A stretch of DNA of 64,000 nt from Cytophagaceae bacterium (GTDB lineage Bacteria; Bacteroidota; Bacteroidia; Flavobacteriales; Flavobacteriaceae): contig PALD01000071.1 in NCBI GenBank assembly GCA_002710685.1, positions 248,001 through 312,000 of the forward strand, given 5' to 3'. The notes below the pieces were generated by a model, which saw only the letters and a list, made by a program, of their open reading frames with translations, searched no databases and was not told the origin of the DNA. Shown here one piece after another: positions 1,040 to 63,948 of the stretch (the stretch's first letter is position 1; each line of letters starts with the position of its first letter). The position numbers and the translations under genes are program-made.

Positions 1040-1052
1040 GGCTTTCGCCAAA
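1040..1052. repeat. Dispersed palindrome, degenerate copy
   Basis: GGCTTTCGCCAAA directly after the stop of the membrane protein gene. Right half is canonical (GCCAAA); the left half reads ATAGGC instead of TTTGGC. Confidence 0.5.
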
Positions 1053-1127
1053 AAAAACTTATGACTTCTTTAATAGCCCCAACCGCGGGGTTTGCTTAAT
1101 TTCTGGCATAATTTCAAACCCTGTTTT

Positions 1128-2132
1128 ATGCTATCTAATAAGCTGCTATATCTCTGTACAATAATCCTCTTTACGACTTTTTCCTATGGTCAAAAGGACA
1201 AGGTGAGGAAACTTGCAATTGACCTATCTGATTATGAATACCCACACCAGGTCTCATTCATCACGCTCCATGAGCAGGGACAAGACCTCAGGATGGCCTT
1301 TATGGATGTCAAGCCACAAAAACCTAATGGCAAGAGCATTATGTTGCTGCATGGCAAGAATTTTAACGGAGCCTACTGGGGAGAAACAATTGATGCGCTC
1401 ACGGCAAAAGGATACCGTGTGATAGTACCAGACCAGGTAGGATTTGGCAAAAGCACAAAACCGATGCATTTTCAGTACAGTTTTCAGCAACTGGCAATAA
1501 ATACAAAGCAGGTGCTCGATTCACTACACCTGGACAAGGTTACCGTCTTGGGGCATTCCATGGGAGGGATGCTTGCGACCCGTTTTGCCCTCATGTATCC
1601 AGAAACAACTGAAAAATTCGTGTTGCTAAACCCCATAGGCCTGGAAGATTATAAATTGAAAGTCCCCTATCAATCCATAGACACATGGTATGCGGGTGAG
1701 CTAAAAAAGGACTATGAATCCATAAAAGCCTATCAGGAGAAAAATTATTATGACAACCACTGGAAACCAGAATATGATGAGTGGGTAAACCTGCTTGCCG
1801 GCTGGACCCTCAATGATGATTATTCATTGATAGCATATAATGCAGCCTTGACCTATGACATGATATTCACCCAGCCCGTGGTGTATGAATTTCAGGATAT
1901 AACCAGCCCCACACTCTTGATAATAGGTACCCGCGACCGCACCGCCCTGGGCAAGCCACTTGTTAGCCCAGAAGTGAGGAAAACCATGGGGCTCTACAAT
2001 GAACTGGGCAAAAGGACACAACAAAAAATACCTAATTCACAACTTGTGGAACTTGAAGGGTTAGGGCATCTGCCACATATAGAAGCCTTTGATAGGTTTA
2101 TACAACCATTGCTTGAATTTTTGGCACAATAG
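1128..2132 (+). CDS. Secreted alpha/beta hydrolase
   Basis: A 334-residue alpha/beta-fold hydrolase. I chose the ATG at 1128 because it begins a clear signal peptide (MLSNKLLYLCTIILFTTFSY before GQ); the open frame starts earlier at a TTG. The oxyanion region is HGKNFNG, the nucleophile elbow is GHSMGG, the acid is probably the Asp in GTRDRT and the base the His in GLGHLPH, so the catalytic triad is intact. Family members act as esterases, lipases, peptidases or C-C hydrolases; nothing here fixes the substrate. It is expected in the periplasm. Confidence 0.85.
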   Translation: MLSNKLLYLCTIILFTTFSYGQKDKVRKLAIDLSDYEYPHQVSFITLHEQGQDLRMAFMDVKPQKPNGKSIMLLHGKNFNGAYWGETIDALTAKGYRVIVPDQVGFGKSTKPMHFQYSFQQLAINTKQVLDSLHLDKVTVLGHSMGGMLATRFALMYPETTEKFVLLNPIGLEDYKLKVPYQSIDTWYAGELKKDYESIKAYQEKNYYDNHWKPEYDEWVNLLAGWTLNDDYSLIAYNAALTYDMIFTQPVVYEFQDITSPTLLIIGTRDRTALGKPLVSPEVRKTMGLYNELGKRTQQKIPNSQLVELEGLGHLPHIEAFDRFIQPLLEFLAQ

Positions 2133-7412: not shown

Positions 7413-8063
7413 TTAACTGCTTAGCAGTCTGGCAACTGCTTTAATGGGGTCACTGGATTTAAATATATAACTCCCGGCAACAAGGGCATCAGCCCCGGCA
7501 GCAACAAGTTGTTTTGCATTTACATCGCTAACTCCACCGTCTATTTCTATTAACGCGGTAGATTTAGCATCCACGATCATTTTTTTTAATTGGGTCACTT
7601 TCGCGAAAGTGTGCTCAATAAAAGATTGACCGCCAAATCCTGGATTCACGCTCATGACAAGCACAATATCTATATCCTTGATAATGTCTTTCAAGAGGTC
7701 AATGGGGGTATGGGGATTGATCGCGACACCTGCCTTCATGCCGTTTGCCTTGATTTCCTGTAGGGTCCTGTGCAGGTGTGGGCAAGCCTCGTAATGCACG
7801 GTAAGATGAGCAGCGCCCAGGTCTGCAAAAGTCTTTATGTAACGTTCTGGCTGGGTGATCATCAAGTGTACATCGAGGGGTTTTGTGGCATATTGTGCAA
7901 TGGCTTTTACCACGGGCATCCCAAAGGAAATATTAGGCACAAACACGCCATCCATAATATCCACGTGAAACCATTGTGCGGCGCTGTCATTTATCATCTC
8001 TATGTCCCTTTGCAGGTTTGCAAAATCTGCCGCGAGTAATGAAGGAGCAATATATATAGCCAT
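7413..8063 (-). CDS. rpe: Ribulose-phosphate 3-epimerase
   Basis: A 216-residue TIM-barrel enzyme interconverting ribulose 5-phosphate and xylulose 5-phosphate in the pentose phosphate pathway. Diagnostic motifs are intact: IAPSLLAADFANL at the N-terminus, FHVDIMDG (metal-binding His and catalytic Asp), LDVHLMI (second His), LVMSVNPGFGGQ, and the second catalytic Asp in IEIDGGV, with phosphate-binding VAGSYIF near the end. Length is normal. A dispersed palindrome (7596-7611) lies inside the coding sequence and encodes TFAKV. Confidence 0.96.
   Translation of the reverse strand: MAIYIAPSLLAADFANLQRDIEMINDSAAQWFHVDIMDGVFVPNISFGMPVVKAIAQYATKPLDVHLMITQPERYIKTFADLGAAHLTVHYEACPHLHRTLQEIKANGMKAGVAINPHTPIDLLKDIIKDIDIVLVMSVNPGFGGQSFIEHTFAKVTQLKKMIVDAKSTALIEIDGGVSDVNAKQLVAAGADALVAGSYIFKSSDPIKAVARLLSS
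7596..7611. repeat. Dispersed palindrome inside rpe
   Basis: CACTTTCGCGAAAGTG, a perfect 16-base palindrome. Same TTTCGCGAAA core as the copies in tamL and after nqrF. Confidence 0.7.
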
Positions 8064-9326: not shown

Positions 9327-10526
9327 CTAGACCCTTACATGCCCATCGCCATATACATAATATTTATTGGTCACTAACTGTTTTAATCCCAGTGGGCCCC
9401 TATGGTGCAGCTTGTCAGTACTTATGGCAAGTTCAGCCCCCACGCCCATCTGGCCACCATCAGTAAAGCGGGTGGATGCGTTGTGATATACAGCGGCGCT
9501 ATCTACAAGTTCCATAAAACGGTGCGCAACATCTTCATCTTCAGTTATTATCGAGGCACTATGGCCACCGCTATAGGTGTTGATACGTTCTACCGCATCA
9601 TCAATTCCGGTGGTTGTGTCAATCAATATTTTAAGGGCTAAAAATTCTTCATACCAGGTGTCTTTAGATGGTATTTCCTTGGCTTCCGCCAAAAGGGGTT
9701 TTACTTTGGCCCCAGCCAAAATATCCACATCCCTTGATCTTAGCACCTCTCCCAGTTCTTTGACCTTAGTTTCAAACTGTGGTAGGTTTTCATCAATCAA
9801 CACCTTGTCCAGCGCATTGCAACCTGATATTTTGTCTGTCTTTGCGTTGATGATTACTTCCACCGCTTTTTTCCAATCGGCATTTTTATGTACATATAAA
9901 AAATTGTTGCCGCGGCCGCTAATCAATACGGCACACTTGGCATGTTGCTTTACAAATTCTATCAAGCGTTCACCGCCACGGGGAACAATTAAATCTAGCG
10001 GTTGCCCGGGATTTTTAAGAAATTCCTGTGTTTCTTCCCGGTTAAGCTCCAGCATGGTGATCCAGTCGTTATCCAGACCATTTTCGGCAAGGGCTTCATG
10101 CCAGCATTGCACCAGGACCTTATTGCTGTTATACGCTTCTTTGCCGCCTTTGAGCAGGATTTTGTTATTTGCTTTAAAGGCAAGTACTGCTGCCTCGATG
10201 GTGACATCTGGGCGGCTCTCATATATGATCATGATGGTGCCAAATGGGGCTGTCCTGTTCACGATGTTTAGGCCACTGTCAAGGGTATCGTTTGATATTT
10301 CCCTGTTTACCGGGTCAACTTGCTCCTTCACCTCTTTGATGGCGCGTATCATGTCATCCACTTTTGCATCGTTTACGACCAGCCTGTCGTAAAGGGCCTG
10401 GTCATCGCGGTTAAAGGCGTCCAGGTCTTTTTTATTGGCATCAATGATGGTGTTGCGCTGGGCATCAATGATTTTCATCATTGAATTGAGCACGTTGTCT
10501 TTTTTGTTTTTATCTAAAATCTGCAT
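9327..10526 (-). CDS. proA: Glutamate-5-semialdehyde dehydrogenase (gamma-glutamyl phosphate reductase)
   Basis: A 399-residue aldehyde-dehydrogenase-superfamily enzyme that reduces gamma-glutamyl phosphate with NADPH in the second step of proline synthesis. Motifs: FGTIMIIYESRPDVT, ALILK-type lysine region (NNKILLKGGKEA), IVPRGG and the catalytic cysteine in SGCNALDK, with STRFTDG and GLGAE-like MGVGAELAIST near the end. Last gene of the proCBA operon, starting 10 bases after proB stops. A palindrome copy at 9679-9692 lies within the gene. Confidence 0.96.
   Translation of the reverse strand: MQILDKNKKDNVLNSMMKIIDAQRNTIIDANKKDLDAFNRDDQALYDRLVVNDAKVDDMIRAIKEVKEQVDPVNREISNDTLDSGLNIVNRTAPFGTIMIIYESRPDVTIEAAVLAFKANNKILLKGGKEAYNSNKVLVQCWHEALAENGLDNDWITMLELNREETQEFLKNPGQPLDLIVPRGGERLIEFVKQHAKCAVLISGRGNNFLYVHKNADWKKAVEVIINAKTDKISGCNALDKVLIDENLPQFETKVKELGEVLRSRDVDILAGAKVKPLLAEAKEIPSKDTWYEEFLALKILIDTTTGIDDAVERINTYSGGHSASIITEDEDVAHRFMELVDSAAVYHNASTRFTDGGQMGVGAELAISTDKLHHRGPLGLKQLVTNKYYVYGDGHVRV
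9679..9692. repeat. Dispersed palindrome inside proA
   Basis: TTGGC-TTCC-GCCAA, perfect 5-base arms; on the coding strand it encodes LAEAK. Confidence 0.65.
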
Positions 10527-10536: not shown

Positions 10537-11319
10537 TTAAACTTTAAATTTTGTTCCTATTTTTCTTCCGTCCAAAATGTCTATGATGACATTTTTCTTC
10601 TTTCCATTTGCTATATAAGTGGTGATGTTTTTTTTGGCGGAAGCCTTAGCAATCTTCAGTTTGCTCTTCATGCCACCACGGCCTTCACCTTCAGCTTTTG
10701 AACTTTCCTGTACATATTGTTCAACGGCTTCTTCTGGGTGTACCTCGTTCAACTTTTCTGAATCATCGTCATCAGGGTGGCCGGTGAACAGGCCATCAGT
10801 ATCCGTAAGTAAAATGAGGGTGTCTGCCTGGGTCAGTTCAGCCACAAGACTGGCCAGCTCGTCATTGTCAGAAAACATGGACATGGTCAATGATACGGCG
10901 TCATCTTCATTTGCAATGGGTACGATACCCTCCGAAATCAGCCCCTCATAGCACTTGATCATGTTTTCACGGTATTTACCGGGGGCAAAATCCCTTTTGG
11001 TGGCAAGTACCTGTGCACAGCGCATACCGTAATTGTTGAAAAGGCTATAGTAGTGCCTCATCATACGGGGCTGCCCCACTGAAGAAAAAATCTGCCTCCT
11101 TATGGAAGGATCTTGTTGAGCCGCATCTCCCAGTATCTCCTTACCGGCAATGGCTGAACCAGACGAAACCAAAATGGGCATGATGCCTCTCTCATAGATT
11201 TCGGCGATTTGCCTTACCAGTTCTTGAAGTACGGGTCCCACGATTCTGTTGTCCCTGTTGGTCATCACATTGGTTCCCACCTTTATGACAACACGGGGTG
11301 TTTGTTTTTCAAAATTCAT
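10537..11319 (-). CDS. proB: Glutamate 5-kinase, short form without PUA domain
   Basis: A 260-residue amino-acid kinase phosphorylating glutamate at the gamma-carboxyl, the first committed step of proline synthesis. VVIKVGTNVMT is the N-terminal nucleotide site, LVSSGSAIAGK the glycine-rich loop, NEDDAVS the glutamate-binding region and LLTDTDGLFTG the ATP-binding segment; GGMKSKLKIAKAS matches the conserved GTGGM-type lysine region. The C-terminal PUA domain of the ~370-residue enterobacterial enzyme is absent. Its ATG overlaps the proC stop by 4 bases, so translation is probably coupled. Confidence 0.95.
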   Translation of the reverse strand: MNFEKQTPRVVIKVGTNVMTNRDNRIVGPVLQELVRQIAEIYERGIMPILVSSGSAIAGKEILGDAAQQDPSIRRQIFSSVGQPRMMRHYYSLFNNYGMRCAQVLATKRDFAPGKYRENMIKCYEGLISEGIVPIANEDDAVSLTMSMFSDNDELASLVAELTQADTLILLTDTDGLFTGHPDDDDSEKLNEVHPEEAVEQYVQESSKAEGEGRGGMKSKLKIAKASAKKNITTYIANGKKKNVIIDILDGRKIGTKFKV

Positions 11320-14847: not shown

Positions 14848-15117
14848 TTATTTTCTTAAACCAAGTTCCTTAACTATCGCACGGTAACGGGTAATGTCCT
14901 TTTTAGTAAGATAGTCAAGAAGCGACCTGCGCTTTCCTACCAGCTTTACAAGTGAACGCTCCGTGTTAAAATCCTTGCGGTTTTTCTTAAGGTGCTCGGT
15001 CAAGTGGTTGATACGGTAGGTGAACAAAGCGATTTGTCCTTCAGCAGAACCTGTGTCGTTCTTGCTGTTACCGTGTTTTTCAAAAATTTCTTCTTTTGCT
15101 TCTTTAGTCAAATACAT
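14848..15117 (-). CDS. rpsO: 30S ribosomal protein S15
   Basis: An 89-residue protein of normal size. It binds the central domain of 16S rRNA and helps form the platform of the small subunit. The family signature is clear: MYLTKEAKEEIF, DTGSAEGQIALFTYRINHLTEHLK, LVGKRRSLLDYL and YRAIVKELGLRK. It precedes pnp on the same strand, the order seen in most bacteria, with a hairpin between them. Confidence 0.98.
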   Translation of the reverse strand: MYLTKEAKEEIFEKHGNSKNDTGSAEGQIALFTYRINHLTEHLKKNRKDFNTERSLVKLVGKRRSLLDYLTKKDITRYRAIVKELGLRK

Positions 15118-15214
15118 GCCAATATTCTTTAAATGATTTTTATGTACTAAACGGTTTATCCGTTTGAGGGCGCAAAGATAATCAAATTATCATTATGCAA
15201 AACCTCTAGTTCAA

Positions 15215-17253: not shown

Positions 17254-19818
17254 TTAGAAAGGATAGTTGATGCCCACGTTAAAGACGGCTTTTCTAAAAT
17301 TATACTGTTTAAACCATCTATCTCCTCGTGGCAATGCTGGGTTATAAGTCTTGAAGCCTACATCAAACCGCAACACAAAAAAGCTGAAATCATACCTGAG
17401 CCCAAATCCTGACCCCACGGCAATATCCCTCAGACTATCAAAACCATTGAAACGGGCATCTTGATCTTCTACATTGTCCAGGGCATTCCAGATGTTGCCC
17501 ACATCAGCAAAAAGTGCTCCCTTGAGGTCACCAAACAGTTGAAAGCGCTGCTCCACATTAAAGGCAAGCTTGAGGTTTGCCTCGTTAAAATCATTGGGGC
17601 TATTGGTTCTTCCAGGGCCTAGGCGATAGGCTTGCCAGGCACGGTTGTCATTTGAGCCTCCGGCAAAATAACTGCGTATAAAAGGAATACTGTTTGAGTT
17701 GCCATACGGTATGGCAATGCCGCCAAAGATGCGAAGGGCAAGGATATTCTCATTGCCCAGGTCCCAGTGCTTGATAAATTCTATTTCGGGCTTTACATAT
17801 TGAGAGTAGGTAACGCCCAGGATCCTTGAGTTGCCATTTTGATCCTTGTCCAGGTTTGCAATGTCACTTAAAAGATCAAGGGTGTTGCCCGCAATTTCCA
17901 GCTTGGCGCGAAAACTGGTGAACTCATTGTCAAATAAGCCACTGCGGGTGTTTTTATAGTAAGTAAAAGAAGATGCCAGGATAAGGTTGTCTGCAGTAAG
18001 CCTTTGCCTTCTCTCTTCAATGCTCCTGACCTGGTCAAAGTCATCCTGTCCCAAGGTCACGGCCCCGTTTTGCACATCGCTCGTAAACCCAGCGGTGCCA
18101 TCAGGTATTGTGAGCTGTCGTGTACCATCATCATTCATCTCAAGATATGGGCTGGATGCATCAAGGTTATCAACGGCAATGGTATTGAGGTTTTCAAAGC
18201 TGTTGCGGTACACCTCATAATAATTGTCAATATTGAGGTTGCGTATATACTGGATATCAAAGAGGTCAAACCTAAAGTTGAGGTTGCCTGAGGGTGACCA
18301 TCTGTAATTGATGCCACCGGTGATTTGCTGTTTGTCAAGCCCTATGTTCTGTTGTGTGCCAAACCCTACATTGAAAGAGGTTTGCGGCGACATTTCTGGA
18401 AGGATAAAGCTTCGCGTGCTTATGGGAAAAAATATCCTGGGGATGGTCAAGCTTACATCAGCTCCCAGCTCGGTAATATCAAAAAATGGGTTGTTGTTCC
18501 CTGCGTCATAGGAGTCACCTATGCTCCCGCGGCCGCTTATCTGCAGGGTTTCAAGCCCTCCAAATAAATTTCGCACAAGCAAAGAGCCGCTACCACCTAT
18601 CCCAAATTTCTGTATGTTTGAAGTGGATACATCAAAGTTTGCACTTAGATTAAAGCGGGGGAGGGGTGTGAGATAAAAATTGGCAATCAGGTCAGTACCC
18701 TCTGGGTCGGTAGGGTCTTCACTAAAGCGCAGGTCAGGATATCTAAAAGTCCTTAGCTGACTCAACCGTATCAAAGACTTGTTGCGCGCATTGTCACTAT
18801 ACAGGTCGCCGGGTTCTATAAAGATGGCATCCGTTAGGTACTTAGGTTTATAGTTTATTTTGTCAAAAGCGTATATGTTGTAATTATTGAGGCTTGCAGA
18901 ATCCCTCATGGCTTCATTGCGCGCTGCATAACTATAATCTGTATACACGTTTATCTTGCTGATGTGGTGCACCTTGAGACTTTCTTCATAAAGCGTGTCG
19001 CTTACTTCTATCTCCCTGTTTTTAATGTACAGCTCAAGGTTGACCTTATGGCCCGTTTGCACACTGTCTCCTATAAAGCTTATATAATCCCTGTCAAAAT
19101 AGAATACCCCCTGGTTTCTAAAAAGTGAAGTGAGCCTTGTGGTCTCTGCGTTTACGTCAAGCAACTTGTATTGATTGCCCGCCAAGAGGGTTGATTGTGC
19201 CTTGTACTTGTTATAGATGCTGTCCACCTTGGGCGAGCGTATAAAGGTCTTGAGAGAGTCTATGGTATAGGCTTCACCCGTGTTGACCTTGTAGGTCACT
19301 TCCCCTTTTTTTGCGGTGCTGTCCCGGTCTATTTCATAGGTGGTGCTGGCATTGAACCAGCCATTGCTCTGGTAGTATTCACTAAGCCTGTCTGCGCTGC
19401 GCTGCGCAAGGTCACTTTTTATGATGGCCGGGGCCTCGCCCGTATTCTTGATGACGCGGTTAAGGTCTCTGCGGTACTCGAGGTAGTTGTTGAGTTGCTT
19501 TCGCGAAAGCAAAAAGGTCAGGAACTTCCTGCGGGATTCATTTTCAATAAACCGTGCATTGAGTATGCTGTCAATATTGGGACGCGCCCAGTTATGGACA
19601 TACAGGCGTATGGGCAGGTTGAGCACGGGCAATCTCGTATTGGGCTCGAGGTAGGGGATATCGTTGATACGGCTGCTGTTTTCTTCTTCACCGTTGACAA
19701 GAATATGGTTCTTGGTGAGCAGGAATTCACCATCAGGAACCCTCTTGACGGCATTACAACCAGTAATTGCTACCGCAAGAAGAATGAATAATGCTATTTT
19801 TGGAACGCGTTGTAGCAA
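17254..19818 (-). CDS. tamL: TamA/BamA-family outer membrane lipoprotein (TamL-like)
   Basis: An 854-residue outer-membrane protein: a lipobox signal peptide (AVAITGC), POTRA-like segments in roughly residues 120-380, and a C-terminal 16-strand Omp85 barrel ending GINYPF. Bacteroidota carry such lipidated TamA relatives, called TamL, which work with TamB in outer-membrane assembly. The only in-frame start is a TTG at 19818, preceded by GAGG; a stop lies just upstream. The gene is divergent from trmH with 39 bases between starts. The 18-base palindrome at 19495-19512 lies inside the gene and encodes LLSRKQ. Confidence 0.85.
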   Translation of the reverse strand: MLQRVPKIALFILLAVAITGCNAVKRVPDGEFLLTKNHILVNGEEENSSRINDIPYLEPNTRLPVLNLPIRLYVHNWARPNIDSILNARFIENESRRKFLTFLLSRKQLNNYLEYRRDLNRVIKNTGEAPAIIKSDLAQRSADRLSEYYQSNGWFNASTTYEIDRDSTAKKGEVTYKVNTGEAYTIDSLKTFIRSPKVDSIYNKYKAQSTLLAGNQYKLLDVNAETTRLTSLFRNQGVFYFDRDYISFIGDSVQTGHKVNLELYIKNREIEVSDTLYEESLKVHHISKINVYTDYSYAARNEAMRDSASLNNYNIYAFDKINYKPKYLTDAIFIEPGDLYSDNARNKSLIRLSQLRTFRYPDLRFSEDPTDPEGTDLIANFYLTPLPRFNLSANFDVSTSNIQKFGIGGSGSLLVRNLFGGLETLQISGRGSIGDSYDAGNNNPFFDITELGADVSLTIPRIFFPISTRSFILPEMSPQTSFNVGFGTQQNIGLDKQQITGGINYRWSPSGNLNFRFDLFDIQYIRNLNIDNYYEVYRNSFENLNTIAVDNLDASSPYLEMNDDGTRQLTIPDGTAGFTSDVQNGAVTLGQDDFDQVRSIEERRQRLTADNLILASSFTYYKNTRSGLFDNEFTSFRAKLEIAGNTLDLLSDIANLDKDQNGNSRILGVTYSQYVKPEIEFIKHWDLGNENILALRIFGGIAIPYGNSNSIPFIRSYFAGGSNDNRAWQAYRLGPGRTNSPNDFNEANLKLAFNVEQRFQLFGDLKGALFADVGNIWNALDNVEDQDARFNGFDSLRDIAVGSGFGLRYDFSFFVLRFDVGFKTYNPALPRGDRWFKQYNFRKAVFNVGINYPF
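19495..19512. repeat. Dispersed palindrome inside tamL
   Basis: TTGCTTTCGCGAAAGCAA, a perfect 18-base palindrome within the coding sequence. Confidence 0.75.
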
Positions 19819-19868: not shown

Positions 19869-20580
19869 AAGCCAAATAAAATTAATAACGAGCCTCTCGC
19901 AGAAAAAGTACAGAAGCCGTCATGGTCTCTTTGTGGTTGAAGGTTTAAAGAGTATCGAAGAGTTTTTAAACAGTGGTTTTAAGCTGCATGCGCTATACGC
20001 CCTGGATGGTTTTTTTGAGCAGGTACCCCCGCCGGTACGGCAGGGGGAAGACAAGGAGCAGCTCAAGAAAATCACCTTTCTCAAGACCCCGCCCGAGGCC
20101 ATTGCCGTGTTCTGTATCCCGCAACACAGTGACAAGGTCAAGCCCGGCCTTAAACTGGTTCTTGACGATGTGCGCGACCCGGGCAACCTGGGCACCATCA
20201 TCAGGCTGTGTGACTGGTTTGGCATCAGGCAGCTCATATGCAGTGAGCACACGGTGGATTGTTATAACCCCAAGGTGGTGCAGGCAACCATGGGCTCCTT
20301 GGCGCGGGTGGATTTGGCTTACGCCAAAATTGATTCTTATTTAAAGGATGTGGCCGCCACAAAATATGGTGCGTTCATGGATGGCGACAACATCTATCAA
20401 AAAACACTTGATAAAGATGCGATACTCGTGATGGGCAATGAGGCAAATGGTATTTCTAGAGAAGTTGAGGCCATGCTGGACGTGCGGGTAAGCATACCGC
20501 GTTTTGGCCAGGATACCGAGAGTCTCAATGTGGCCTCGGCAACGGCAATATTGTTGAGTGAGTTTAAAAGACGAGAGTGA
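19858..20580 (+). CDS. TrmH-family (SpoU) RNA 2'-O-methyltransferase
   Basis: A 240-residue SPOUT-class methyltransferase that should 2'-O-methylate ribose in tRNA or rRNA. An N-terminal substrate-binding domain (KYRSRHGLFVVEGLKSIEE) precedes the knotted catalytic domain with all three motifs: LDDVRDPGNLGTIIRLCDWFG, VMGNEANGIS and IPRFGQDTESLNVASATAIL. Overall pattern is of the RlmB/TrmH type; the exact nucleotide is not predictable here. Palindrome copies lie inside (20313-20328) and directly after (20584-20600) the gene. Confidence 0.92.
   Translation: MVSKSQIKLITSLSQKKYRSRHGLFVVEGLKSIEEFLNSGFKLHALYALDGFFEQVPPPVRQGEDKEQLKKITFLKTPPEAIAVFCIPQHSDKVKPGLKLVLDDVRDPGNLGTIIRLCDWFGIRQLICSEHTVDCYNPKVVQATMGSLARVDLAYAKIDSYLKDVAATKYGAFMDGDNIYQKTLDKDAILVMGNEANGISREVEAMLDVRVSIPRFGQDTESLNVASATAILLSEFKRRE
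20313..20328. repeat. Dispersed palindrome inside trmH
   Basis: TTTGGC-TTAC-GCCAAA, perfect 6-base arms, encoding LAYAK. Confidence 0.75.
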
Positions 20581-20583: not shown

Positions 20584-20600
20584 TTTGGCTTTAAGCCAAA
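20584..20600. repeat. 17-mer dispersed palindrome after trmH
   Basis: TTTGGCTTTAAGCCAAA, 8-base arms plus a central T, 3 bases after the trmH stop and 4 before the end of convergent porT. Identical to copies at 48596-48612 and 58124-58140, and to 60786-60802 on the other strand. It lacks a following T run, so it is not a classical terminator. Confidence 0.8.
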
Positions 20601-25036: not shown

Positions 25037-25055
25037 TTTTGGGCTTACGCCAAAA
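25037..25055. repeat. Dispersed palindrome between trkH and ypdA
   Basis: TTTTGG-GCTTACG-CCAAAA, 6-base arms, ending 9 bases before the ypdA start codon. Confidence 0.65.
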
Positions 25056-26030: not shown

Positions 26031-26032
26031 GG

Positions 26033-26045: not shown

Positions 26046-26135
26046 GCCATGCGTTAAACTATTGCCAAATTACATTTGACCAAAAACTAAAATGGGATTT
26101 TCTGCGCTATATGGATATGATCAATTAAAAAAACC

Positions 26136-38877: not shown

Positions 38878-39525
38878 ATGGCTTTATTATCAAAAAAAGA
38901 ACAGGGCCTGATTTTTGACCCGCTTACTGACAACAACCCCATCACCATCCAGGTGCTTGGTATATGTTCTGCACTGGCGATTACCGCACAGCTCAAGGCA
39001 TCCATAGTTATGGCAGTTTCAGTACTGTTTGTACTGGCCCTGGGTAATGTGGTTATTTCGCTTATGCGAAATATAATCCCGCCCAAGATCAGGATTATCG
39101 TGCAGCTTATCGTGGTGGCCGCCCTGGTTATCATCGTTGATCAATGCCTCAAGGCCTTTCAATATGAATTGAGCAAGCAGCTATCGGTTTTTGTGGGATT
39201 GATCATTACAAACTGTATCATCATGGGCCGCTTTGAGGCCTTTGCCCTGGGCAATGGACCATGGCAATCATTTCTTGATGGTATAGGTAACGCACTGGGT
39301 TATGGACTCATCCTTGTGACCGTGGGTTTCTTTAGGGAGCTTTTGGGTTCTGGGACATTGTTGGGCTTTCAGATACTGGGGGACCCCATAGCAAAGACTG
39401 GCCTGTATGGCATAGGTTATGAGAACAACGGTTTTATGCTGCTCTCACCCATGGCATTGATTGTACTGGGTATCATCATCTGGGTACAGCGCAGCCGTAA
39501 CAAAGCCCTGATAGAAGAACATTAA
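38878..39525 (+). CDS. nqrD: Na+-translocating NADH:quinone reductase subunit D
   Basis: A 215-residue membrane subunit with six helices, homologous to RnfE. Together with NqrE it forms the symmetric pair around the iron-sulfur centre and sodium path. Conserved LGICSALAIT, VVISLMRNIIPPKIRIIVQL, VVDQCLKAF-like and TNCIIMGRFEAFALGNGPW are seen. A perfect palindrome (39055-39072) lies in the coding sequence of the ISLMRN segment. Starts 2 bases after nqrC. Confidence 0.97.
   Translation: MALLSKKEQGLIFDPLTDNNPITIQVLGICSALAITAQLKASIVMAVSVLFVLALGNVVISLMRNIIPPKIRIIVQLIVVAALVIIVDQCLKAFQYELSKQLSVFVGLIITNCIIMGRFEAFALGNGPWQSFLDGIGNALGYGLILVTVGFFRELLGSGTLLGFQILGDPIAKTGLYGIGYENNGFMLLSPMALIVLGIIIWVQRSRNKALIEEH
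39055..39072. repeat. Dispersed palindrome inside nqrD
   Basis: ATTTCGC-TTAT-GCGAAAT, perfect 7-base arms. Confidence 0.75.
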
Positions 39526-41602: not shown

Positions 41603-41618
41603 CGCTTTCGCGAAAGCG
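41603..41618. repeat. Dispersed palindrome after nqrF
   Basis: CGCTTTCGCGAAAGCG, perfect 16-base palindrome, 6 bases after the nqrF stop and separate from the true terminator 17 bases further on. Confidence 0.75.
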
Positions 41619-42060: not shown

Positions 42061-43058
42061 AGTCATTATTACCTTTATTAATAGCATTTATTTTTTTAGG
42101 TTGTGAGGAGCCCGCACCACAACTTCATATCCTTGAAGGGGAAGCGCTGGGCACAAGCTATCATGTTAAATTTTATGGTGAAGTTGATTCTGCGACCGTA
42201 AAGTTTGACTCTGTTATAAATACAATCAATGCTACTTTTAGCACCTATATCCCCAATTCCCGTATTTCTAAAATCAATCATGGTGATTCAACCATCGTTG
42301 CCAATGCCATGTTCAAGGAGGTCATGGCGCTGTCAAAAACCGTTTACCAGAACTCTGGGGGCTATTATGACCCCACGGTGGGCAAACTGGTCAATGCCTA
42401 TGGTTTTGGCCCAGAAGGTAAGATAGAAGAGCTGGATAGCATCACCGTGGATTCCCTAAAGCAATTTGTGGGGCTGGACAAGGTAGGTATTTCAGCAAAT
42501 GGCCTTGTTGTAAAGGATATTCCGGGTGTCTATCTTGATTTTAACAGCATTGCAAAAGGGTATTGTATCGACAGGATAGGGAAAATGCTGGAAGATAACG
42601 GCGTTACGGATTATCTTGTAGAACTGGGGGGCGAACTGCTCGCCAGGGGCAAGAACCTAGATCGCGACCAGGCCTGGGCCGTGGGTATCGAGAATATTGA
42701 TGCCCCAGTTGATGATAGAAGCTATACCCGGGTCGTCGCATTGCAGGACATGGGTATGGCCGGTTCTGGCAATTATAGAAAATACAGGATTGACCCCGCC
42801 ACCGGAAACAAATACGTACATACCATAAACCCCCTTACGGGAAAAGCTGAAAAAAGCGATATCCTTAGTTCTACGGTCATTGCCAGTACCTGCGCAGAGG
42901 CTGATGCCTATGCCACCACATTTATGGCCATGGGCATTGAACGCTCAAAAAAATTATTGCAAAAATTAGAAGGCGTAGAAGCATACCTTATGTATGCTGA
43001 AGGTAACGAGACCAATATTTATATGACACCGGGTTTTAAAAAGTACCTCAAGGATTAA
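42057..43058 (+). CDS. apbE: FAD:protein FMN transferase
   Basis: A 333-residue lipoprotein (signal peptide with lipobox FLGC) of the ApbE family, which uses FAD to attach FMN to Thr in SGAT-like motifs. EGEALGTSYHVKFYG, INATFSTYIPNSRISKIN, YYDPTVGKLVNAYGFGP, VDLGGI-like VELGGELLARG and AGSGNYRKY...HTINPLTG are seen, with the metal-binding Asp region in STCAEADAYATTFMAMG. Being next to nqr, its likely targets are NqrB Thr223 and NqrC Thr218. Its end overlaps the convergent methyltransferase by 4 bases. Confidence 0.95.
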   Translation: MKSLLPLLIAFIFLGCEEPAPQLHILEGEALGTSYHVKFYGEVDSATVKFDSVINTINATFSTYIPNSRISKINHGDSTIVANAMFKEVMALSKTVYQNSGGYYDPTVGKLVNAYGFGPEGKIEELDSITVDSLKQFVGLDKVGISANGLVVKDIPGVYLDFNSIAKGYCIDRIGKMLEDNGVTDYLVELGGELLARGKNLDRDQAWAVGIENIDAPVDDRSYTRVVALQDMGMAGSGNYRKYRIDPATGNKYVHTINPLTGKAEKSDILSSTVIASTCAEADAYATTFMAMGIERSKKLLQKLEGVEAYLMYAEGNETNIYMTPGFKKYLKD

Positions 43059-43825
43059 TCCTTGTGGCATACCGGTAAGATTTCACCAGGGGCTAACCTG
43101 TACCTGTCGATTTCGGCAGGGGCAAGCCGTGACGTGTAATCAACCTCATCAACCCTAAAGCCCACACCGCGCAGTTTATCAAAGTAATCCCGACCATAAA
43201 CCCGCACATGGTCATATTGACCAAAAATCCTGGCCCTCTCCTCCCTGTCAGTAATGGTATCATCCTCTAGGGTGGATGCCCTTGATAGATCTTGCGGTAT
43301 CTGTAAAATCGCTTTTCCTCCAGGTTTAAGGACCCTGTAGAGTTCGCTCATGGCGGTGTCGTCATCTGGGATGTGCTCAAGCACGTGGTTGCAGAATATG
43401 ATATCATATTCATCGTCCTTAAAGGGAAGTGCGCAGATGTCAGCCTTTACATCTGCCAGCGGGGAGTTAAGGTCTGTGGTCGTGTAATCGAGGTTGTGCA
43501 TTTCGCGGAAGCGTTTATAAAAGGCCTGCTCCGGTGCAAAGTGCAACATTTTGGCTTGCGCCGAAAAAAAATCTGTTTCCCGCACCAGGTACAGCCATAA
43601 AAGCCTGTGCCGTTCAAGCGAGAGCGTGGATGGCCCCAGTACATTGGGGCGTGTTTTTCCATATCCATAGGATAGGAACCTGCGGAAGCTTTTGCCATCA
43701 ATGGGGTCTGTATAGCGGTCTCCCTTTAGCGCAACCGCGATAATGGGTTTCACGGCATAGCTCAACCTGATGAGCAATGGGCGGGGGATAGTATTGAGGG
43801 CCTTTTTAAAAAGGGAGTTGATCAT
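43055..43825 (-). CDS. Class I SAM-dependent methyltransferase, target unknown
   Basis: A 256-residue methyltransferase. The hydrophobic, basic N-terminus (ALNTIPRPLLIRLSYAVKPI) may contact the membrane. The SAM domain is atypical at motif I (MLHFAPEQAFYKRF instead of ExGxGxG), then YTTTDLNSPLADVKADICAL and the Methyltransf_11 core FKDDEYDIIFCNHVLEHIPD and LYRVLKPGGKAILQIP. Its ATG overlaps the stop of the NUMOD4/HNH gene by 4 bases. A palindrome copy (43550-43566) lies inside. Confidence 0.85.
   Translation of the reverse strand: MINSLFKKALNTIPRPLLIRLSYAVKPIIAVALKGDRYTDPIDGKSFRRFLSYGYGKTRPNVLGPSTLSLERHRLLWLYLVRETDFFSAQAKMLHFAPEQAFYKRFREMHNLDYTTTDLNSPLADVKADICALPFKDDEYDIIFCNHVLEHIPDDDTAMSELYRVLKPGGKAILQIPQDLSRASTLEDDTITDREERARIFGQYDHVRVYGRDYFDKLRGVGFRVDEVDYTSRLAPAEIDRYRLAPGEILPVCHKD
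43550..43566. repeat. Dispersed palindrome inside methyltransferase gene
   Basis: TTTGGC-TTGC-GCCGAAA, one extra G in the right arm; encodes FFSAQAK. Confidence 0.55.
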
Positions 43826-48539: not shown

Positions 48540-48752
48540 ATGATTAACATGAAAAACTCAATATACATTAAAATACTATTTGCCTTAATATTTGTTTTGG
48601 CTTTAAGCCAAAATACAACCGCCCAGATTTCTTTACCTAATGGAGATTCTACTGAAGTGGATGACACAGGTGCAGGACCCATTGACGGTCTTATAGGCCT
48701 GGGTATTGTGGCTGGTGCCGCACTGGGCTATAAAAAGTTGCGTAAGAAGTAG
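48540..48752 (+). CDS. Small PID-CTERM-like protein
   Basis: A 70-residue exported peptide: signal sequence (NSIYIKILFALIFVLALS, cleavage near TAQ), a short acidic mature part (LPNGDSTEVDDTGAG) and a tripartite C-terminus PIDGLIGLGIVAGAALGYKKLRKK of PID motif, hydrophobic helix and basic tail. This matches the PID-CTERM type of sorting tail known from Bacteroidota, thought by analogy with PEP-CTERM to be handled by a membrane protease. The ATG at 48540 or 48549 may start it. A perfect 19-base palindrome makes up part of its signal-peptide coding sequence. Confidence 0.75.
   Translation: MINMKNSIYIKILFALIFVLALSQNTTAQISLPNGDSTEVDDTGAGPIDGLIGLGIVAGAALGYKKLRKK
48595..48613. repeat. 17-mer dispersed palindrome inside the PID-CTERM gene
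   Basis: TTTTGGCTTTAAGCCAAAA, 9-base arms plus central T, encoding LALSQN at the end of the signal peptide. Contains the 17-mer identical to those at 20584 and 58124. Confidence 0.8.
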
Positions 48753-49760: not shown

Positions 49761-50789
49761 TCAACCTATTTTTTTAAGGCTTTCAACATCCCTTACCATA
49801 ATACTTCTGCCTTTTATATCAACTAAGCCATCGTTCTTGAATTCCTGCAGTGTCCTGGTCACGGTTTCTTTTGCAATGCCAGCTAGGCTGGCAAGTTCCT
49901 GCCGGGGTATACGCAATATGGCCCCCTCTTCAGATTCATTTGATAATTTAAGGAGCACCTGTGCAGTCCTGTACCGTACAGAGCCATACGCCATCTGGCT
50001 CAACTGTTGTGACATGCCGCCCAGGCTTTTGGAAAGGATGTCAATAATGAGCTCATTGACTTCCCGGTTTTCATAGAGTATTTCATTGAATTTTTCTAAA
50101 GAAATCACGGCAACCTCGCTTTCTGTAACCGTTGAAGCGTTATTTACATAATGGCTCTGTTTGCCCAGCCCCCCAAGGCCAAACATTTCATTGGGCTTGA
50201 TAAGCTGAGAAATCAGTTCCTTGTCTTTGTTGTCTATCGAGAAAACCTTGACCACGCCACTGAGCAGTAGGTAAATATCCTTGATTTTTTGTTCGGCACG
50301 ATAAATATGTGTATTGGGTCTAGCATTAAGAATCCTTCCGTTTTGCTTCAGGTATTCGTAGAATTCAGTTACATCCTTAAAGTTGAACTTACCATCAGCC
50401 AGGGTTTTTTTTCTTACAATTTTGGCTTTCGCCAAACGGCTTTCAACACTGGCCAATAATTCAAAGGGTTTAATGGGTTTTGGTATATAATCATCAGCTC
50501 CCAGGTTCATGCCTTTGCGTATATCGTCTTTTTCTACCCTGCCCGAAAGAAATATAAAGGGTATCAAAGCGGTATCATTGTTTGAAGAAAGCCGGCCCAA
50601 TACCTCATAGCCATCTATTGAGGGAAGCTCGATATCACATACAATCAGGCTGGGCTTAAATCGCAGGGCGGCTTGGATGCCCTCCTCACCATTATACCGG
50701 CCCACGGCATCATAGCCAGATTTTTGCAACAAGTACACAATGTTATCGCATAGCATTTTATTGTCTTCAATCACAAGTAGGCGTTCCAT
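49761..50789 (-). CDS. Receiver domain fused to CRP/FNR-type transcription regulator
   Basis: A 342-residue fusion: receiver domain at residues 1-120 (LVIEDNKML, phospho-acceptor Asp52 in CDIELPSIDGYEV, FLSGRV, Lys in IPKPIKPFEL), a cNMP-binding domain at ~145-235 (IYLLLSGVVKVF...MFGLGGLG) and a CRP helix-turn-helix at ~270-335 (RIPRQELASLAGIAKETVTR). The recognition helix keeps Glu and Arg (ETVTR) that read TGA half-sites in CRP/FNR. No kinase gene is adjacent. Related fusions occur in flavobacteria near cytochrome oxidase/CcoI genes. A palindrome lies in the linker (50421-50436). Confidence 0.9.
   Translation of the reverse strand: MERLLVIEDNKMLCDNIVYLLQKSGYDAVGRYNGEEGIQAALRFKPSLIVCDIELPSIDGYEVLGRLSSNNDTALIPFIFLSGRVEKDDIRKGMNLGADDYIPKPIKPFELLASVESRLAKAKIVRKKTLADGKFNFKDVTEFYEYLKQNGRILNARPNTHIYRAEQKIKDIYLLLSGVVKVFSIDNKDKELISQLIKPNEMFGLGGLGKQSHYVNNASTVTESEVAVISLEKFNEILYENREVNELIIDILSKSLGGMSQQLSQMAYGSVRYRTAQVLLKLSNESEEGAILRIPRQELASLAGIAKETVTRTLQEFKNDGLVDIKGRSIMVRDVESLKKIG
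50421..50436. repeat. Dispersed palindrome inside the receiver-CRP gene
   Basis: TTTGGC-TTTC-GCCAAA, perfect 6-base arms; encodes LAKAK in the linker between receiver and cNMP domains. Confidence 0.75.
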
Positions 50790-56125: not shown

Positions 56126-56725
56126 CTAACGAGGTTCAAAGATAAAAAACAGTTCTTTACCGCTTCTGGGTTTTATTGAATTATAGCAGGGCTCAAGCTT
56201 GGTGATGATAAAGCTTTTGCTAAAAAGTTCTTGATATTCCTCTTGGCTTCCGCCAAAGGGTGGCCCGTCTTCAGTAAGCGGAAAATCAAATAGTAACCCC
56301 GCCAGTTTTCCTGAAGGTCCAATCATTGTATGCATCTGTTCCACATAGGCCTGCCTCTGGCTGGGATGCAGTGCACAAAAGAAGGTCTGCTCCAGGATGA
56401 GGTCATATTTTTCGCTACAGCGAAAAAAATCTTCTTGAATCAAACGGGGTTTGAGCGTTAGGGATTGTGTGGCCCTCTTGATGTTGTTCAAGGGGCTTGG
56501 GGCAATATCCACCACGGTGACATCGGTAAATCCCTGACGGCATAAATAGATGGCTTCATGCCCATTGCCGGCACCTGGGATGAGTATTTTAAGGTCCTTG
56601 TCCCGCAGTTGGTCTATGTAAGCGGTGAGTGGTGGGCTGGCATGCCCCATGTCCCAGCCCGTATTGTGGTCGAGGTAGCGGTTTTCCCAGTAGTTTTTAT
56701 CAAAGCTCCTCCCGGTCATCTTCAT
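56126..56725 (-). CDS. TPMT-family SAM-dependent methyltransferase
   Basis: A 199-residue methyltransferase of the thiopurine S-methyltransferase type. Motifs: YWENRYLDHNTGWDMGHASP, LIPGAGNGHEAIYL (SAM site), VVDIAPSPL and LILEQTFFCALHPSQRQAYV. In bacteria such enzymes methylate selenium, tellurium or thiols, but many members are unassigned. Its first 26 bases overlap the S4-domain gene upstream, suggesting coupled translation. Two palindrome copies (56243-56256, 56408-56427) lie in the coding sequence. Confidence 0.9.
   Translation of the reverse strand: MKMTGRSFDKNYWENRYLDHNTGWDMGHASPPLTAYIDQLRDKDLKILIPGAGNGHEAIYLCRQGFTDVTVVDIAPSPLNNIKRATQSLTLKPRLIQEDFFRCSEKYDLILEQTFFCALHPSQRQAYVEQMHTMIGPSGKLAGLLFDFPLTEDGPPFGGSQEEYQELFSKSFIITKLEPCYNSIKPRSGKELFFIFEPR
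56243..56256. repeat. Dispersed palindrome inside the TPMT-like gene
   Basis: TTGGC-TTCC-GCCAA, identical to the copy in proA; encodes FGGSQ. Confidence 0.65.
56408..56427. repeat. Second palindrome inside the TPMT-like gene
   Basis: TTTTTCGCT-AC-AGCGAAAAA, perfect 9-base arms; encodes FFRCSEK. Confidence 0.65.
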
Positions 56726-58090: not shown

Positions 58091-58120
58091 AAAAGCCCTG
58101 GCATTTGCCAGGGCTTTTCT
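58091..58120. terminator. Bidirectional terminator
   Basis: Twelve-base stem AAAAGCCCTGGC / GCCAGGGCTTTT, loop ATTT, between convergent FKBP-like (+) and barrel protein (-) genes. Confidence 0.92.
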
Positions 58121-58123: not shown

Positions 58124-58140
58124 TTTGGCTTTAAGCCAAA
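58124..58140. repeat. 17-mer dispersed palindrome next to the barrel gene stop
   Basis: TTTGGCTTTAAGCCAAA, abutting the stop codon of the minus-strand gene ending at 58141; distinct from the adjacent terminator. Confidence 0.8.
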
Positions 58141-60785: not shown

Positions 60786-60802
60786 TTTGGCTTAAAGCCA
60801 AA
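60786..60802. repeat. 17-mer dispersed palindrome upstream of tgt
   Basis: TTTGGCTTAAAGCCAAA, the reverse complement of the copies at 20584 and 58124, in the divergent gap between transketolase and tgt. Confidence 0.8.
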
Positions 60803-61979: not shown

Positions 61980-63056
61980 ATGAAGATTCTTGACTGGTAC
62001 ATACTCAAGCGGTACCTGGGGACCTTTACCATGATGCTTGTCTTGTTTATCCCCATCGGGATAACGGTGAACCTTGCCGAGAAGATTGATAAAATCCTGG
62101 CAAACGAGGTGCCGTTCGTAGAAGTTGCCATTTACTATCTCAACTTTACCATTTACTTTGCAAACCTGCTTTTTCCACTATTCTTGTTCCTTTCGGTAAT
62201 ATGGTTTACCTCAAAATTGGCAAACAACACAGAGGTGGTGGCCTTTTTGAGCAGTGGTGTTTCTTTTTACCGGTTTTTAAGACCATATATTATTGGGGCA
62301 TCCATTGTATGTATAGGGGCCTATATCATGGGTACATATCTGGCACCCAGCGCGAGCAAGGGTTTTAATGAGTTTACTTATGAGTATCTCAAGCATGGTA
62401 AGAAGGATAGGGAAACCTCTAATGTGTACCGGCAGATTAATGACAACGACTATATATATGTAAGCCGTTTTAACCCGTTGCGCAACATGGGGTCAAACTT
62501 TACCCTGGAGCATTTTGAAGATGACGTGCTCAAATACAAAATTCATGCGCGTAGCATTTTATACAATCCAGAAGATACCACATATACGCTCAACGCGTAT
62601 AAAAAAAGGATCGTGGGCAAGGAAGAAGACATACTGCAGAGCAAGTCAAAACTTGACACCACGTTCACCTTTGACCTAGAAGACCTTACCCCGGTAGAAT
62701 ATATTGCCGAAACGTTGACCACCCCCGCACTGCGCAACTTTATTGAGAAAGAGCGTGCCCGCGGTAGCTCAAATATCAATAGGTATGAGGTCGTGCTGCA
62801 CAAAAGGTACAGTTTGCCCGTGAGCGCATACATCCTTACCATCATCGCGGTTGCGGTTTCTGCCATGAAACGCCGTGGTGGTATGGGTATCAACCTTGCC
62901 TTTGGTATATCGCTGGCATTCATATTTATCTTTTTTGACAAGGTTTTTGGTACAATTTCAGAGCAATCCAGTTTTTCGCCCATAGTGGCCGTATGGTTGC
63001 CCAATATTCTTTTTGGCATACTCGCCGTCATCCTGCTCAACCGTGCAAAACGATAA
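61980..63056 (+). CDS. LptF/LptG-family permease
   Basis: A 358-residue inner-membrane subunit of the lipopolysaccharide exporter LptB2FG. Typical opening MKILDWYILKRYLGTFTMML, three N-terminal helices, a periplasmic beta-jellyroll-like middle (residues ~130-270) and three C-terminal helices (AYILTIIAVAVSAMKRRGGM, FDKVFGTISEQSSFSPIVAV). Begins at the base after the tgt stop codon, the conserved flavobacterial arrangement. Whether it is F or G cannot be decided from this gene alone. Confidence 0.93.
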   Translation: MKILDWYILKRYLGTFTMMLVLFIPIGITVNLAEKIDKILANEVPFVEVAIYYLNFTIYFANLLFPLFLFLSVIWFTSKLANNTEVVAFLSSGVSFYRFLRPYIIGASIVCIGAYIMGTYLAPSASKGFNEFTYEYLKHGKKDRETSNVYRQINDNDYIYVSRFNPLRNMGSNFTLEHFEDDVLKYKIHARSILYNPEDTTYTLNAYKKRIVGKEEDILQSKSKLDTTFTFDLEDLTPVEYIAETLTTPALRNFIEKERARGSSNINRYEVVLHKRYSLPVSAYILTIIAVAVSAMKRRGGMGINLAFGISLAFIFIFFDKVFGTISEQSSFSPIVAVWLPNILFGILAVILLNRAKR

Positions 63057-63948
63057 TCTCAAAAGTTACCTGCATTTTCACGTCATCGTCTTCATCTGGG
63101 GTTTTACCGCAGTGCTGGGCGCATTGATAAGCATAGGTGCCATCGCGCTGGTGTGGTACCGTATGTTGATAGCATCGGTGGTGATTTATGGCTATATCCG
63201 GTATAAGAAGATTTCGCTTAAAGCGAAAAAAAAGACCATATTTACCCTCTGTGTGGCCGGGATTCTCATTGCCTTGCACTGGCTGGCATTTTTTGGCGCG
63301 ATAAAGATTTCTAATGTGAGCATTACCCTGGCGATGATGAGCACGGGCGCATTTTTTACGAGTATCCTGGAGCCCATTTTTTATAAGCGTAAGGTGATAT
63401 GGTATGAAATAGCCTTTGGGTTGCTGGTGGTGTGTGGGCTATACATCATTTTTGAAGTGGAGACACGGTATACCGAGGGAATCATCGTGGCCCTCGTGGC
63501 AACATTGCTCTCATCTATTTTTACATTGATCAACGGTAAGGTGGCTCAAAAACACAACCCTACGATGATTTCTTTTTATGAGCTGGGCGCCGGGGTGGTG
63601 TTCATAACCATGTTTTTACTGGTCACCTCGGGTTTTAAAGATGGGTTTTTTAACCTCCCCATGATGGACTGGACGTATATTATTATCCTGGCAACGGGGT
63701 GTACGGCCTATGCCTTTATTGCCGCTGTAAAGGTGATGAAGCACCTCACCCCTTACACGGTTATGCTGACCACAAACCTGGAGCCGGTGTATGGGATTAT
63801 ATTGGCCTATTTGATATTGGGCGATTCAGAGCAGATGCAGCCCCAGTTTTACTATGGCGCTATTTTAATTTTGGCGACGGTTATTGCCAATGGGATCTTC
63901 AAGAACAAGAGGAGAAAACGCCCCATAGTCCCAAACGTCATAGAATAG
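63043..63948 (+). CDS. DMT-superfamily (EamA) transporter
   Basis: A 301-residue membrane protein with ten helices in two EamA repeats (HVIVFIWGFTAVLGALISIG ... LVWYRMLIASVVIY; then IIVALVATLLSSIFTLINGK ... LTTNLEPVYGIILAYLILGD). Start taken as the GTG at 63043, which overlaps the LptF/G gene by 14 bases; TTG at 63013 would add ten unlikely residues. DMT transporters export amino acids or other metabolites; substrate unknown. A perfect palindrome at 63212-63228 lies in a cytoplasmic loop. Confidence 0.9.
   Translation: MQNDNLKSYLHFHVIVFIWGFTAVLGALISIGAIALVWYRMLIASVVIYGYIRYKKISLKAKKKTIFTLCVAGILIALHWLAFFGAIKISNVSITLAMMSTGAFFTSILEPIFYKRKVIWYEIAFGLLVVCGLYIIFEVETRYTEGIIVALVATLLSSIFTLINGKVAQKHNPTMISFYELGAGVVFITMFLLVTSGFKDGFFNLPMMDWTYIIILATGCTAYAFIAAVKVMKHLTPYTVMLTTNLEPVYGIILAYLILGDSEQMQPQFYYGAILILATVIANGIFKNKRRKRPIVPNVIE
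63212..63228. repeat. Dispersed palindrome inside the DMT transporter gene
   Basis: TTTCGCTTAAAGCGAAA, 8-base arms plus central A; the C/G version of the 17-mer. Encodes ISLKAK in a lysine-rich loop. Confidence 0.75.

Follow-up and report, generated by a model that had tools for sequence, protein, structure and literature searches.

The stretch of DNA analysed here (the window) comprises 64,000 nucleotides, positions 248001-312000 of contig PALD01000071.1, and belongs to a flavobacterial genome of 4.99 Mb in 80 contigs that we label G000. Within genes and between them it carries short palindromic motifs, and these are one family: a unit SGC-TTNC-GCS-RAA (S, G or C; R, purine; Y, pyrimidine) that stands single, is doubled, or is completed to palindromes of 16-17 bp. 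The assembly has a listed contamination of 8.79%, and some contigs may derive from another organism; synteny with congeners, checked for the window, extends over a large part of it. Gene models come from our own simple gene caller. The following members of the family lie in the window.

1040-1052, + strand: single unit GGC-TTTC-GCC-AAA, intergenic
7598-7609: CTTTCGCGAAAG (extended, CACTTTCGCGAAAGTG at 7596-7611), in gene 7413-8063 (-)
9681-9693, + strand: single unit GGC-TTCC-GCC-AAA, in gene 9327-10526 (-)
9705-9720: TTTGGC-CCCA-GCCAAA, in gene 9327-10526 (-)
10633-10645, - strand: single unit, in gene 10537-11319 (-)
19498-19509: CTTTCGCGAAAG, in gene 17254-19818 (-); identical 12-mer at the orthologous place in genome G152
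20313-20328: TTTGGC-TTAC-GCCAAA, in gene 19933-20580 (+)
20584-20600: TTTGGCTT-T-AAGCCAAA, between convergent genes
25042-25054, + strand: single unit GGC-TTAC-GCC-AAA, intergenic
26031-26047: double unit GGCTTTCGCCGAAAGGC, intergenic
29544-29556, + strand: single unit GCC-TTAC-GGC-GAA, in gene 29516-30145 (+)
31301-31313, + strand: single unit CGC-TTTC-GCG-GAA, in gene 30599-32224 (-)
37607-37619, - strand: single unit, in gene 36927-38138 (+)
39056-39071: TTTCGC-TTAT-GCGAAA, in gene 38878-39525 (+); identical 16-mer in G155 and G153 (two of six relatives)
41603-41618: double unit CGCTTTCGCGAAAGCG, intergenic; the form dominant in other carrier genera
43501-43513, - strand: single unit, in gene 43055-43825 (-)
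43553-43565, + strand: single unit GGC-TTGC-GCC-GAA, in gene 43055-43825 (-)
48596-48612: TTTGGCTT-T-AAGCCAAA, on the edge of an open reading frame (ORF) of 52 codons that is doubtful, so probably intergenic
50421-50436: TTTGGC-TTTC-GCCAAA, in gene 49761-50789 (-), which lacks an ortholog in the stretches fetched
56245-56257, + strand: single unit, in gene 56126-56725 (-)
56410-56425: TTTCGC-TACA-GCGAAA, in gene 56126-56725 (-)
58124-58140: TTTGGCTT-T-AAGCCAAA, immediately after a terminator-like hairpin (58091-58118)
60786-60802: TTTGGCTT-A-AAGCCAAA, between divergent genes
63212-63228: TTTCGCTT-A-AAGCGAAA, in gene 63043-63948 (+), which likewise lacks an ortholog in the stretches fetched

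Abundance of the palindromes

Motif clusters, defined as the union of four motif classes, were counted against shuffles that preserve the protein and codon use of each gene and shuffle the intergenic bases. The window holds 24 clusters, against a mean of 0.46 and a maximum of 3 in 300 shuffles, a figure biased in its favour by the definition of the four classes after inspection of G000 itself. In a 464-kb sample (the window plus 20 stretches; this sample and the 824-kb one used below are both non-random), 198 clusters stand against a mean of 2.9 and a maximum of 6 in 30 shuffles. The TTTSGCTTNNGCSAAA pattern, taken over from an earlier note on this DNA, occurs 117 times forward and 124 times in reverse in the whole genome, and its backwards-read control 0 and 0 times; TTTSGCTTNAAGCSAAA has 234 sites, its control none. 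The density of the four classes is 360 sites in 824 kb, or one per ~2.3 kb. The element is a short palindrome present across the genome far above expectation, as in the class of highly iterated palindromes (HIP).

Within coding sequence of the 464 kb, TTTSGC-N4-GCSAAA with matching S occurs 30 times against 0.97 in the synonymous-codon control (another 15 copies are not wholly coding), and TTTSGCTTNAAGCSAAA, CTTTCGCGAAAG and CTTTCGNCGAAAG occur seven times each against 0.03 expected (with 20, 4 and 7 further copies, respectively, not wholly coding). The half-site TTTSGC by itself is barely enriched (383 coding against 323 expected), which means that it is the pairing of the halves that matters. 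Many genic TTTSGC-N4-GCSAAA sites stand in the frame that reads L-A-x-A-K (by our own frame translation), as would be expected if chance or codon usage, for example LAxAK-like peptides, mimicked palindromes. The synonymous shuffles refute this explanation, as do seven congeners with 0-2 such sites per 40-60 kb, and we give it practically no credence.

The earlier note had reported more than 20 palindromes in the window, and all 25 places that it listed do read as palindromes or near-palindromes. Nineteen coincide with the 24 clusters. The other six miss the exact classes, 12307, 22633, 32802 and 58931 (the last a rare mixed S:S pair) because they are imperfect, and 2163 and 30590 because they have other arms. 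Five clusters (9705, 10633, 29544, 37607 and 43501) were absent from that list. The note would have given the family up had the counts not risen above a codon-matched control; that comparison was run, and the counts far exceed it. The palindromes at 2163-2181 (arms TTTTAGC/GCTAAAA) and 30590-30610 (arms TTTTTGGG/CCCAAAAA) lie outside the family as defined here, and may be chance occurrences or drifting members.

Anatomy and coupling of the arms

Hairpins of the form triplet-loop-triplet, with loops of 3-5 bases, were ranked against synonymous shuffles. GGC-GAAA-GCC (47 against 2.75) and CGC-GAAA-GCG (26 against 1.05) were the most enriched, and SGC-TTNAA-GCS as well as the GGAA, GCAA and GTAA loops came near the top. 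Alignment of 234 GCTTNCGC sites gave the 13-base unit SGC-TTNC-GCS-RAA, which reads TTY-SGC-GNAA-GCS on the opposite strand. The first position of its RAA tail is A or G in 86% of the sites and the last two are A in 80% and 85%; beyond the 13 bases little is common to the copies, apart from weak preferences for T at -4 and A or G at +12. The 16-mer CGCTTTCGCGAAAGCG consists of two overlapping units on opposite strands, TTTSGC-TTNC-GCSAAA is a single unit with its 5' side completed, and the 17-bp form contains TTNAA by definition. In the 824 kb, 33 units are double and 211 single, and the loops of the 82 TTTSGC-N4-GCSAAA sites are TTNC/GNAA in 25 cases, TGTA in 13 and TGCA in 7. The inner GC positions of the 16-bp form are nearly invariant; the outer TTT/AAA positions are variable and more often mismatched. 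No single duplex submotif is common to all the forms, which speaks mildly against one methylase; a methylation site had been among the candidates of the earlier note.

The two arms of the element are coupled. The variable S bases pair as G..C or C..G in all 82 TTTSGC-N4-GCSAAA sites, where independence predicts 34 mixed ones, in all 53 TTTSGCTTNAAGCSAAA sites (24 mixed predicted) and in 224 of 232 single units (111 predicted) of the 824-kb sample, the first and third of these classes overlapping in sites. Such coupling points to a hairpin, a cruciform or an arm copied from its partner, and not to a protein dimer that reads the half-sites of a duplex separately. Rho-independent terminators were rejected, since no T run lies 3' of the hairpins: whichever strand is read, the bases that follow are rich in A and not in T, which bears out the view of the earlier note that these are not ordinary terminators.

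Origin of the copies

By our gene models 17 of the window clusters lie in genes, and 14 of these were codon-aligned with two to seven congeners. Two imperfect sites, 22633 and 58931 (the latter with one congener), were also aligned, which makes 16 genic sites in total; the stretches fetched held no ortholog of the genes at 45.5-48.8 kb and 49.2-54.8 kb, nor, with one exception, of those at ~1.1-7.3 kb. An indel inside the site was found in none of these 16, aligned to one to seven congeners, nor at any of 17 loci compared between the related genomes G390 and G168. Creation of a palindrome was often accompanied by an amino-acid change: HTFAKV stands at 7598 where relatives have NTYKKV, NTYRKV and similar peptides, KASAK at 10633 in place of the KDAAR or KETAR of seven relatives, PSAKAK at 31301 where four of seven have PTANPQ or PTANPK, and FFRCSEK at 56410 where two have FFEYSGS and FFDHNGT. 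Elsewhere the peptide is the same (LLSRKQ at 19498, ISLMRN at 39056) and synonymous codons differ among congeners. Since no indel lies inside the 16 sites, these alignments show that genic copies arise in place through base substitution.

For four intergenic sites, spacer lengths in several relatives were estimated from the neighbouring orthologs. The spacers at 20584 and 25042 are shorter in G000 than in all relatives, and that at 26031 is about equal in six of seven. The spacer with 41603 is 101 bp long, 15-19 bp more than the 82-86 bp that four of six relatives have, as might be expected of mobile repeats copied by a Y1 transposase, of the repetitive extragenic palindrome (REP) or IS200 kind. 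The hairpin with its adjacent conserved trinucleotide (TTY/RAA) also resembles Y1 substrates in outline. A REP-like element had been among the suggestions of the earlier note and is not supported. A search of G000 with the PF01797 profile of the Y1/RAYT (REP-associated tyrosine transposase) family gave no match at E 0.001, though it matches in 7 of the 13 genomes of the genus; the genic sites lack any insertion signature, and the copies share little beyond the motif. Repeats of the RAYT/REP type were therefore rejected and are highly improbable as an explanation.

Distribution among relatives

In twelve further members of the genus, the TTTSGCTTNNGCSAAA pattern has 2-19 copies (both strands summed). 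Among 397 genomes of the family, the same pattern reaches 223 copies in G539, 97 in G168, 95 in G390, 53 in G355 and 42 in G339, and at most 12 in the others; in a sample of the order (148 genomes), three more genomes of this family, all of genus g2, have 12, 14 and 17. According to a k-mer ranking of stretches, the main form in these five other carriers and in Dokdonia sinensis is CGCTTTCGCGAAAGCG. GCTTTCGCGAAAGC occurs 857 times in G355, 664 in G390, 609 in G539, 578 in G168, 408 in G339 and 89 in G000, and at most 19 times elsewhere in the 397 genomes. CGCTTTCGCGAAAGCG is present in 9 of 296 genomes of a phylum sample, above two copies only in G000 (33 sites). TTTSGCTTNAAGCSAAA is nearly private to G000: its 234 sites there are followed by 15 in G355 and 9 in G199, the rest of 249 genomes having at most two. 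The element thus belongs to the family level, and the G000 species carries a diversified dialect of it. A search of genome contigs for a close sister of this species yielded two matches, Dokdonia sinensis (54%) and a Flavobacteriaceae metagenome-assembled genome (44%), and may leave out the nearest records. The k-mer ranking also brought up unrelated short-period repeats, of the TTTCTTAG and GAGTTTA types, in G168 (stretches L063-L066) and G355 (L070-L073).

Spacing, conservation and strand

In the stretches read from the carriers with a fixed form, sites are evenly spaced. They number one per 3.7-5.3 kb, and the coefficient of variation (CV) of the CTTTCGCGAAAG spacing is 0.42 in G390 (36 sites), 0.43 in G168 (30), 0.44 in G539 (34), 0.49 in G355 (37), 0.65 in G339 (69) and 0.25 in Dokdonia (8), against 0.83-0.94 expected for uniform placement. 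Gaps below 1 kb make up 0-0.03 of the total in the five carriers other than Dokdonia (0.16-0.23 expected). Control hexamers were unremarkable in 11 of 12 tests, the twelfth being GGTACC in G168 (20 sites, P 0.018). Every one of 25 stretches of the G339 chromosome has 1-5 sites, with no origin-to-terminus gradient evident by eye. In G000, pairs closer than 1 kb are also fewer than expected, 0.32 against 0.37 for the four classes (P 0.007) and 0.13 against 0.21 for the three palindromic ones. The first palindromic class avoids the other two, with 17 pairs within 1.5 kb against 28.8 expected (P 0.007; thresholds of 0.5, 1, 1.5 and 2 kb were tried and gave P 0.050, 0.039, 0.007 and 0.011); at 1 kb none of the three separate class pairs is significant (P 0.066-0.173).

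G390 and G168 align at 90.6% identity across 71.7 kb. Of 17 sites in G390, 14 have an identical counterpart in G168 and three differ by one base; 14 of 16 G168 sites are alignable, and all 14 are common to G390. Any 12 columns are kept with a frequency of 0.397, so that conservation of the 12-mer at 14 of 17 loci has P 4e-4. Identity is 0.989 in the 16-bp core and 0.92-0.93 in the flanks. The flanks are T-rich/A-rich, with T at -11 in 79-81% of the G390 and G168 sites. The genic share of sites, from 16 of 30 (G168) to 55 of 69 (G339), is below the coding fraction of 0.89-0.90.

Orientation is free. In the 824 kb, single units divide 106:105 between the strands and 114:97 relative to replication polarity, with local GC skew as proxy (P 0.27); all units of a smaller sample divide 88:69, a ratio given without significance test. 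On the sense strand of genes, 82 of 142 genic copies read TTNC and 60 GNAA. This freedom argues that the element acts as DNA rather than RNA. An RNA element was rejected, as the GNAA loop is not preferred on the sense strand and Rfam gave no gathering-threshold match at the palindrome sites. Rfam did find an S15-Flavobacteria ribosomal protein leader in the window (15115-15180, - strand); on the strength of this leader and of the matches to Dokdonia sinensis and the Flavobacteriaceae assembly we assign G000 to the Flavobacteriaceae.

Phages and conjugative islands

In IMG/VR, 41 stretches contain CGCTTTCGCGAAAGCG, 18 of them with CTTTCGCGAAAG at least twice; several GC-rich stretches with a single copy may be chance occurrences. 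A PHROGs scan of 19 proteins encoded by six of these stretches, two of which belong to one contig, gave matches to portal, major head, terminase, tail sheath, tape-measure, HNH and integrase families, while three proteins matched nothing and another three matched functionally unassigned families alone; one phage stretch that was compared with a phage database gave no match. In several low-copy genomes the copies cluster in 10-40 kb, within related islands, of which L180 bears genes for a heavy-metal P-type ATPase, a resistance-nodulation-division (RND) efflux system and a multicopper oxidase, and L186 one for conjugative TraM. The site at 8365 of L180 is kept in six of seven aligned copies at 74-78% identity, the other sites in none to four. 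Phage contigs and conjugative metal-resistance islands bear sites, which means that resident foreign DNA carries the element too; these copies partly come from near-identical relatives, and their sites are not independent.

Some distances between sites recur. Two CTTTCGCGAAAG sites lie 4480 bp apart in IMG/VR stretches L124, L127, L128 and L140, as if related phages kept site positions; two sites lie 933 bp apart in islands L180, L181, L183 and L184, and palindrome positions are partly conserved in the metal-efflux island family (L180-L190).

What the element may do

The element is probably functional, at the level of DNA and dependent on pairing. As to its role, we tentatively favour a highly iterated recognition element of the HIP1 kind, possibly Chi-like, that selection maintains on the chromosome and on resident DNA. 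The element would be read as a small hairpin in single-stranded DNA, its commonest unit giving a 3-bp GC stem and a GNAA loop. When broken or replicating DNA is resected, this hairpin would meet an end-degrading helicase-nuclease, for which an AddAB-like enzyme is a candidate, and would signal it, or physically force it, to cease degradation, so that recombination takes over. A palindrome is usable from either side, and one copy every few kb would therefore suffice. Control of resection is the most economical job that we can assign, because it asks for one site per few kb on each resident molecule and for no polarity. Reading as a single-stranded hairpin is favoured by the free orientation and by kinship with minihairpins that have GNA or GNNA loops and G-C stems, described as thermostable and nuclease resistant (PMC4686876). 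A PDDEXK_1 match occurs in an ORF of 901-936 amino acids in all 19 genomes checked and a second one, in an ORF of 1046-1095 amino acids 4-6 kb away, in 10; judged by size and neighbourhood, we read the pair as a candidate AddAB-like enzyme. RecC, considered as a lineage-specific reader, was rejected, with matches in 0 of 20 genomes. In a fuller version, which is unlikely as a whole, the element would be a palindromic counterpart of Chi, read by structure: a nuclease-resistant minihairpin every few kb would limit resection from both directions and serve as a mark of self on resident DNA, on prophages and on conjugative islands, and in the G000 species the fixed sequence would have relaxed into a family held together by pairing and loop and no longer by its letters.

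Several observations weigh against a Chi-like hairpin. Classical Chi is strand-biased, and the single units are not. The GNAA loop fits single and double units only, and 57 of the 82 TTTSGC-N4-GCSAAA palindromes lack TTNC/GNAA. The two sides of outer position -2 vary about independently in the fixed-form carriers (by our own arithmetic), as they would for a dimeric protein that binds duplex DNA. Evenness is weak in G000, with a CV of 0.88 against 0.98 for the four classes (P 0.017) and 0.93 against 0.97 for the three palindromic ones (P 0.315). The spacer with 41603, one of four testable intergenic ones, would fit an insertion. Finally, AddAB-like genes are equally frequent in genomes without the element, and thus leave its patchy distribution unexplained.

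The apparently independent variation at -2, together with the flanks, would suit instead a duplex site for the dimer of a chromosome-organising (nucleoid or topology) protein, placed once per 4-5 kb on all integrated DNA. Such a protein would account for the even spacing and near-absence of pairs below 1 kb in the fixed-form carriers, for the sites in every G339 stretch and for those on phage and conjugative DNA, and according to PMC1939737 even spacing is expected of compaction sequences, not of uptake sequences. It leaves unexplained why mixed S:S arms are so rare (8 in 232 units, none in the 82 and 53 palindromes of the two classes) and why several arm-to-arm spacings exist, and we regard it as rather unlikely. 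Methylation-directed mismatch repair, which PMC4390886 proposes as the source of cyanobacterial HIP1, would yield palindromes as a by-product, its bias converting near-sites until about one per kb is reached. The origin of sites by substitution, their saturation-like spacing and the different palindromes of different lineages, as for alternate HIPs (same source), agree with it. The pairing of the variable S bases is not what it predicts, the forms lack one common methylatable core, and no methylase was identified, none having been sought; this origin seems doubtful to us. A DNA uptake signal for self-recognition, which the earlier note had also suggested, would spread through biased natural transformation, with dialects between genera; it would also be abundant, genic and intergenic, without clear strand bias and different between lineages, and Riemerella columbina is reported to favour its own DNA (PMC7965970). 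Uptake sequences are described in PMC1939737 as non-palindromic and not very evenly spaced, which the element is not, and phage structural modules and conjugative islands bear sites, so that this explanation is quite improbable.

Comparison with known systems

The Chi sites of RecBCD and AddAB are matched in density, since one site per 3.7-5.3 kb in fixed-form carriers is near that of Chi in E. coli. A putative AddAB-like enzyme is encoded as well, and an orientation-free version would serve both directions; the element differs from Chi in being palindromic, without strand bias and read, if so, as a structure. Uptake signal sequences and DNA uptake sequences (USS/DUS) are likewise dispersed, genic and intergenic, and divided into dialects, whereas the element has paired arms, even spacing in fixed-form carriers and copies on phage and conjugative DNA. 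REPs and bacterial interspersed mosaic elements (BIMEs), with their RAYT, are short dispersed hairpins too, but here neither a RAYT match nor an insertion signature in genes was found. The enriched SGC-GNAA-GCS is of the same GNNA-loop, G-C-stem kind as d(GCGNAAGC)-type minihairpins, which in the part of the source available are a synthetic tool and are not described as a genome-wide family (PMC4686876).

The closest described class is HIP1, to which the earlier note had likened the palindromes. As regards behaviour the likeness holds: the element is palindromic, highly iterated, genic and intergenic, and made by substitution in genes. With HIP1 (GCGATCGC) and the alternate HIPs it also shares replacement by other palindromes in particular lineages and a disputed function. 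It has neither GCGATCGC nor a known alternate HIP sequence, as different motifs top the rankings, and it differs in its length of 13-17 bp, its gapped hairpin forms, its co-varying arms and its occurrence in another phylum. Words beginning with Bacteroid or Flavobacter are absent from the main text of PMC4390886, on HIP1. In searches of the open-licence PubMed Central literature, no report of this element stood among the papers listed, and none with the string CTTTCGCGAAAG was found.

To our knowledge, HIP1 has been studied in cyanobacteria and is still unexplained. A second HIP-like system, in another phylum, offers independent handles on what such elements do, namely even spacing, co-varying arms and copies in phages and conjugative islands, and would make the question of function testable in culturable flavobacteria such as Dokdonia.

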